Shown here one piece after another: positions 15,229 to 15,573 of a stretch of 30,432 nt of DNA (its first letter is position 1; each line of letters starts with the position of its first letter). Below the pieces are notes generated by a model. That model was not told the DNA's origin. It was given only the letters and a program-made list of their open reading frames with translations, and searched no databases. Source of the DNA: a virus. Location of the stretch: positions 1 to 30,432 of the IMG/VR virus record IMGVR_UViG_3300045884_000127; one strand, written 5' to 3'. The position numbers were made by a program, and so were the translations under genes.

Positions 15229-15573
15229 GTGAAACCTCGCCGGCCGGCCCCTTCGACATTGGAACGAGCAGTGATCGCTTCGGTCCGGGACGCCGAATGG
15301 CTGAAGAAGACCGACGACGCCTCCTACTGGCTGCTCCGCGACGTGTCTCTGGCCCTGGATGGGGTGAGAAGACAGGCCACGTTGGATGGGGTGCTTAGCA
15401 TTTCACCCAGGGATCTGGCCGAGCTCGCCGGTAGAGCTCTGCAACTCCTCAGAGAGCTCGGCCTGACCCCCGCTGCACGTCATCGTATGGGGTTGTGGGA
15501 TGAGCAAGTCGACGATGCCTTCGCCAACGTTCTTAGCATCGCCCAGGCCAAGGCTGGGAACGGCGAGGAGTAG
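15229..15573 (+). CDS. Small terminase subunit spanning the A/B junction
   Basis: This 114-residue protein begins at GTG 15229 (MKPRRPAPSTLERAV) and has a helical N-terminal DNA-binding region (DASYWLLRDVSLALDGVRRQ) and the P27-type LGLTPAARHRMGLW motif near the C-terminus. It recognises the packaging site and recruits the large subunit. The N-terminal part belongs to unit A and the C-terminal part to unit B, joined inside a stretch shared exactly by both units (15410-15567), so this gene may be a hybrid made by recombination or by assembly. The large terminase start at 15500 lies inside it. Confidence 0.85.
   Translation: MKPRRPAPSTLERAVIASVRDAEWLKKTDDASYWLLRDVSLALDGVRRQATLDGVLSISPRDLAELAGRALQLLRELGLTPAARHRMGLWDEQVDDAFANVLSIAQAKAGNGEE
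15410..15567. repeat. Exact A/B shared repeat at the unit junction
   Basis: Bases 15410-15532 are identical to 30310-30432 (123 bases, cut by the window end), and 15441-15567 are identical to 1-127 (cut by the window start). Together they imply a 158-base exact match between units, while flanking sequence differs every 10-30 bases. It covers the overlapping ends of the two terminase genes. It is the point where the two units are joined. Confidence 0.9.

Follow-up and report, generated by a model that had tools for sequence, protein, structure and literature searches.

The 30,432-base IMG/VR virus record analyzed here (IMGVR_UViG_3300045884_000127; its whole length is called the window) is, with a probability of about 90%, an assembly join of two related, separate phage genomes of about 15 kb. 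The genomes, units A and B, are connected via a short exact segment that both contain (called R). The sequence-only reading had already proposed that an assembler joined two circular genomes through a shared segment. This is now supported by the finding of a B monomer in another sample, by record ends that fit a k-mer graph with k=127, and by a family in which only monomer sizes occur.

Architecture of the record

The record corresponds to a closed circle of 30,340 bases plus a 92-base end overlap (1-92 is identical to 30341-30432). Unit A (15,440 bases) and unit B (14,900 bases) together make up this circle. Unit A (1-15440, plus strand) is a complete phage genome of about 15.4 kb which extends from the large terminase gene round to the small terminase gene. 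It is delineated by its hallmark genes and by 99.985% identity over 13,643 bases to another contig (3300045910_000147). Unit B (15441-30432, plus strand) is a complete 14.9 kb phage genome followed by the 92-base terminal overlap, and it is 100% identical to a self-closing record (3300045978_000302). Each unit carries one full set of hallmark genes, and the gene order is common to A and B. The set consists of one gene each for the small and the large terminase, portal, protease-capsid, tail tube, tape measure, tail protein, M15 peptidase, tyrosine integrase and HNH. Both the sizes and the single hallmark set per unit bear out the earlier description of two complete units of 15440 and 14900 bp.

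Self-comparison of the window revealed two further exact matches, one between 1-127 and 15441-15567 (offset 15440) and the other between 15410-15532 and 30310-30432 (offset 14900). Via circular closure, these imply that a single exact stretch of 158 bases, R (15410-15567, plus strand), is present at both A/B joins. As judged from exact matches, flanks and the graph described below, R is the join point, and it extends from the end of the small terminase gene to the start of the large terminase gene. The final 127 bases of R are found at the record start (1-127, plus strand) and its initial 123 bases at the record end (30310-30432, plus strand). No other exact match between A and B exceeds 86 bases, and outside R the units are only about 74-94% identical where they can be aligned. 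An exact match of the length of R is thus far beyond chance. That a 158-base match joins A to B and B back to A had only been implied before; self-comparison confirms it.

Units A and B in other samples

An IMG/VR scan with the large terminase of B retrieved record 3300045978_000302 (L049), which has 15,027 bases (14,900 + 127). In a whole-record comparison, its first 15,023 bases matched window positions 15410-30432 with 0 mismatches. L049 self-closes through R: its 127-base direct end repeat is identical to the first 127 bases of R, and the order is B-left, then R, then B-right. In sample 3300045978, B is a closed monomer. The start of L049 coincides exactly with base 1 of R, as expected for R being the branching edge in that assembly too.

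Unit A was traced by IMG/VR scans with the R core and with the integrase of A. These led to 3300045910_000147 (L057) from a third sample, a contig of 13,643 bases that corresponds to window positions 1889-15531 with two mismatches (8642 and 8648) and ends 122 bases into R. Over R, its exact match to B covers these 122 bases up to the contig end, while such matches reach at most 82 bases in the other relatives compared. Because L049 starts at R and no compared relative except L057 shares more than 82 exact bases there, an A-like genome was probably present in the sample of L049 as well. The parts of the window thus occur separately elsewhere, B closed on its own and A only as the L057 fragment ending in R. 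A closed A monomer was not found in the IMG/VR scans by terminase, R core and A integrase, which is an argument against an assembly join.

R in the assembly graph

End repeats often equal assembler k-mer lengths, and assemblers sometimes concatenate genome copies (CheckV paper, PMC8116208). In the closed relatives, the end repeats have 127, 127, 123 and 123 bases. These lengths suggest an assembler setting of k=127; the assembler was probably metaSPAdes-like, with reads of about 150 bases. JGI assemblies are made with metaSPAdes, with k up to 127.

A de Bruijn graph (vertices of k bases, edges of k+1) was computed with A and B as two circles. At k=127, this graph has two branching vertices and exactly three unitigs: window positions 1-15536, R (158 bases) and 15441-30436. 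Base 1 of the window is also base 1 of unitig A, and at its other end the window lacks the final 4 bases of unitig B. Every join carries one exact repeat that exceeds k (R with 158 bases, the next longest match having 86). R is again the sole branch at k=99, yet this graph does not match the start of the record; at k=77, extra branches are present. The missing 4 bases at the record end count against an assembly join. This deficit is not peculiar to the window, as closed relatives with 123-base end repeats exist. L054 and L078, closed records of study 33000184xx, have such repeats and show the same 4-base deficit relative to 127 as the window's end.

The join probably arose as follows. The sample would have contained two related, separate circular (or circularly permuted) genomes of about 15 kb, A and B, both temperate and siphovirus-like. 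With its 158 bases, R would have exceeded the largest k-mer of the assembler (127) and, by a small margin, the length of a 150-base Illumina read. A and B would then form two loops in the k=127 graph, with R as their common edge. Taking the path from A via R into B, the assembler would have halted where R recurred, yielding a 30.4 kb contig with overlapping ends. We infer that no A-B molecule was present in the window's own sample. A point against this is that an assembler which uses read pairs should favor A-R-A if monomers alone existed. SPAdes does use read pairs, and the choice of A-R-B may mean that some pairs linked A to B, e.g., from recombinants.

At every tested k up to 158, two circles and one heterodimer yield the same set of k-mers, so that the assembled sequence alone does not discriminate between two circles and an A-B molecule in the window's sample. 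A real heterodimer would have been generated when a single crossover in R, in a doubly infected cell, fused the circles A and B into a cointegrate or mixed concatemer of 30.3 kb, from which packaging would later release monomers. Such a molecule would lead to the same sequence, R being the longest homology, and the probable co-occurrence of A and B in more than one sample would also agree with it. We consider such a molecule unlikely, with a small residual chance, as B occurs as a monomer of unaltered sequence in another sample. In addition, a 30 kb molecule would be twice the genome size of the family and could only have been assembled at sufficient abundance. Record ends that fall on k=127 graph ends need no new biology.

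Relatives and recombination in the family

Besides the window, 21 records, including the B monomer, have a portal with at least 65% amino acid sequence identity to that of B, on contigs of 4.1-16.9 kb. None of the 20 portal relatives other than the B monomer (at the same threshold) is on a contig longer than 16,922 bases, and those examined contain a single copy of each hallmark gene. Four relatives are closed, with circle sizes of 14,900, 15,700, 16,727 and 16,799 bases, and all of them are monomers. No dimer was seen among the 21 portal relatives. That no relative exceeds 16.9 kb, and that a dimer did not recur in independent samples or relatives, also speaks against a heterodimer. A profile search of 84,980 genomes returned no portal relative, and a megablast search with unit A against a phage collection returned no match.

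One closed relative of 15.7 kb (L050) is a mosaic, its tail genes being A-like (94.9%) and its integrase segment B-like (89%), which we read as a sign of recombination in the family. That this family recombines is in favor of a heterodimer. If an abundant 30 kb heterodimer arose through recombination at the terminase overlap, mixed concatemers would regularly give rise to mosaic progeny in this family; we give this little credence. Mosaic monomers such as L050 are also consistent with a different scenario, in which recombinant monomers (A-left to B-right via R) existed beside A and B in the sample. In that case, the A-R-B step would be real, with read-pair support for the choice of the assembler, but the 30 kb circle would not. 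However, a second crossover would be needed elsewhere. Differences between A and B extend over the entire units, and IMG/VR scans with the terminase, the R core, the A integrase and the portal retrieved no contig of this kind. We regard this scenario as highly improbable and retain an assembly join of two monomeric genomes.

The terminase gene overlap

The terminase gene starting at 15229 had been predicted to be a hybrid. This gene (15229-15573, plus strand) is the small terminase gene of A (Pfam Terminase_6, E=1e-8), and its flanks indicate that it crosses the join. Left of R, it consists of A sequence, and R itself is common to both units. Beyond R, the part from the other unit comprises only the last sense codon and the stop codon, which read GAG TAG (from B) versus AAG TAG in A's own flank. 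The prediction is thus correct in a trivial sense only, for one C-terminal residue (E or K). The large terminase gene of B (15500-16909, plus strand; identified as an ORF and by homology) has its first 68 bases inside R and shares 74 bases (15500-15573) with the small terminase gene.

DNA conservation in this region is highest at offsets 250-350, with 92-100% identity among L050, L010, L011, L007 and L006, compared to mostly 64-94% around it. L052, a more distant relative, is alone in departing from this conservation at the terminase overlap. Double coding is a plausible reason for the conserved overlap. A packaging site (cos/pac signal) at 15440-15575 may be another reason for the near-invariant DNA. 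As R falls where sequence conservation is highest, at the terminase overlap, this appears to be the position where two family members are most likely to share more than k (127) exact bases.

Integrases and attachment sites

The probable attP core of B (26863-26906, minus strand) is located downstream of the integrase gene and resembles the 3' half of a tRNA gene (read as tRNA-Val, CAC). This undivided block beside the integrase fits the earlier claim that unit B has an unsplit attP. L050 has a similar tRNA-3'-half-like core (near 8838, minus strand), which differs from that of B by paired changes on both sides of the T-stem. It looks as if the tRNA genes matched by the two cores came from different host species. 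An exact match to the attP core pattern was not found in 84,980 genomes.

The tyrosine integrase gene of A (12398-13308, minus strand) has a frameshift near 13090, which splits the gene and leaves the N-terminal part in another frame. Because the same frameshift occurs in L057, which is from another sample, an assembly error is improbable, and the gene is likely to be a genuine pseudogene or to have an unusual frameshift.

Integrase genes in both units might point to the tandem integration of two prophages into a single host chromosome. The chance of this is negligible: host flanks are absent, the ends overlap into a circle, the attP-like block of B is undivided and the integrase reading frame of A is broken. 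A tandem prophage was rejected, as the joins are inside terminase genes and not at attachment sites.

Comparison with known systems

As in the assembler concatemers that CheckV described from IMG/VR (PMC8116208), one contig contains more than one viral genome, with end repeats that are tied to the k-mer length. Those concatemers, however, repeat one and the same genome (2.0x to 6.8x) and are seen by k-mer frequency. The mean 15-mer frequency of the present record is only 1.07, owing to a divergence of about 6-26% between the aligned parts of A and B. Phage components in assembly graphs, as treated by Phables (PMC10563150), are similar in that related phage genomes share unitigs which the assembler cannot separate, but here there is just one shared edge of 158 bases with two complete loops. 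In genome size and in terminase or portal homology, A and B resemble small actinobacteriophages of about 15-18 kb, e.g., Curtobacterium phage Penoan (15,303), Microbacterium phage Efeko (17,491) and Curtobacterium phage Barebow (18,292). Protein identity to these is only 27-31%, and the tail tube protein has no match in the phage collection.

The record could pass for a complete circular virus of 30.4 kb although it represents two genomes. A possible flag for such chimeras is a double set of single-copy hallmark genes combined with one exact match between the two parts that is longer than the assembler k-mer. Otherwise, the genome size, the gene counts and any networks built on this record would be wrong.
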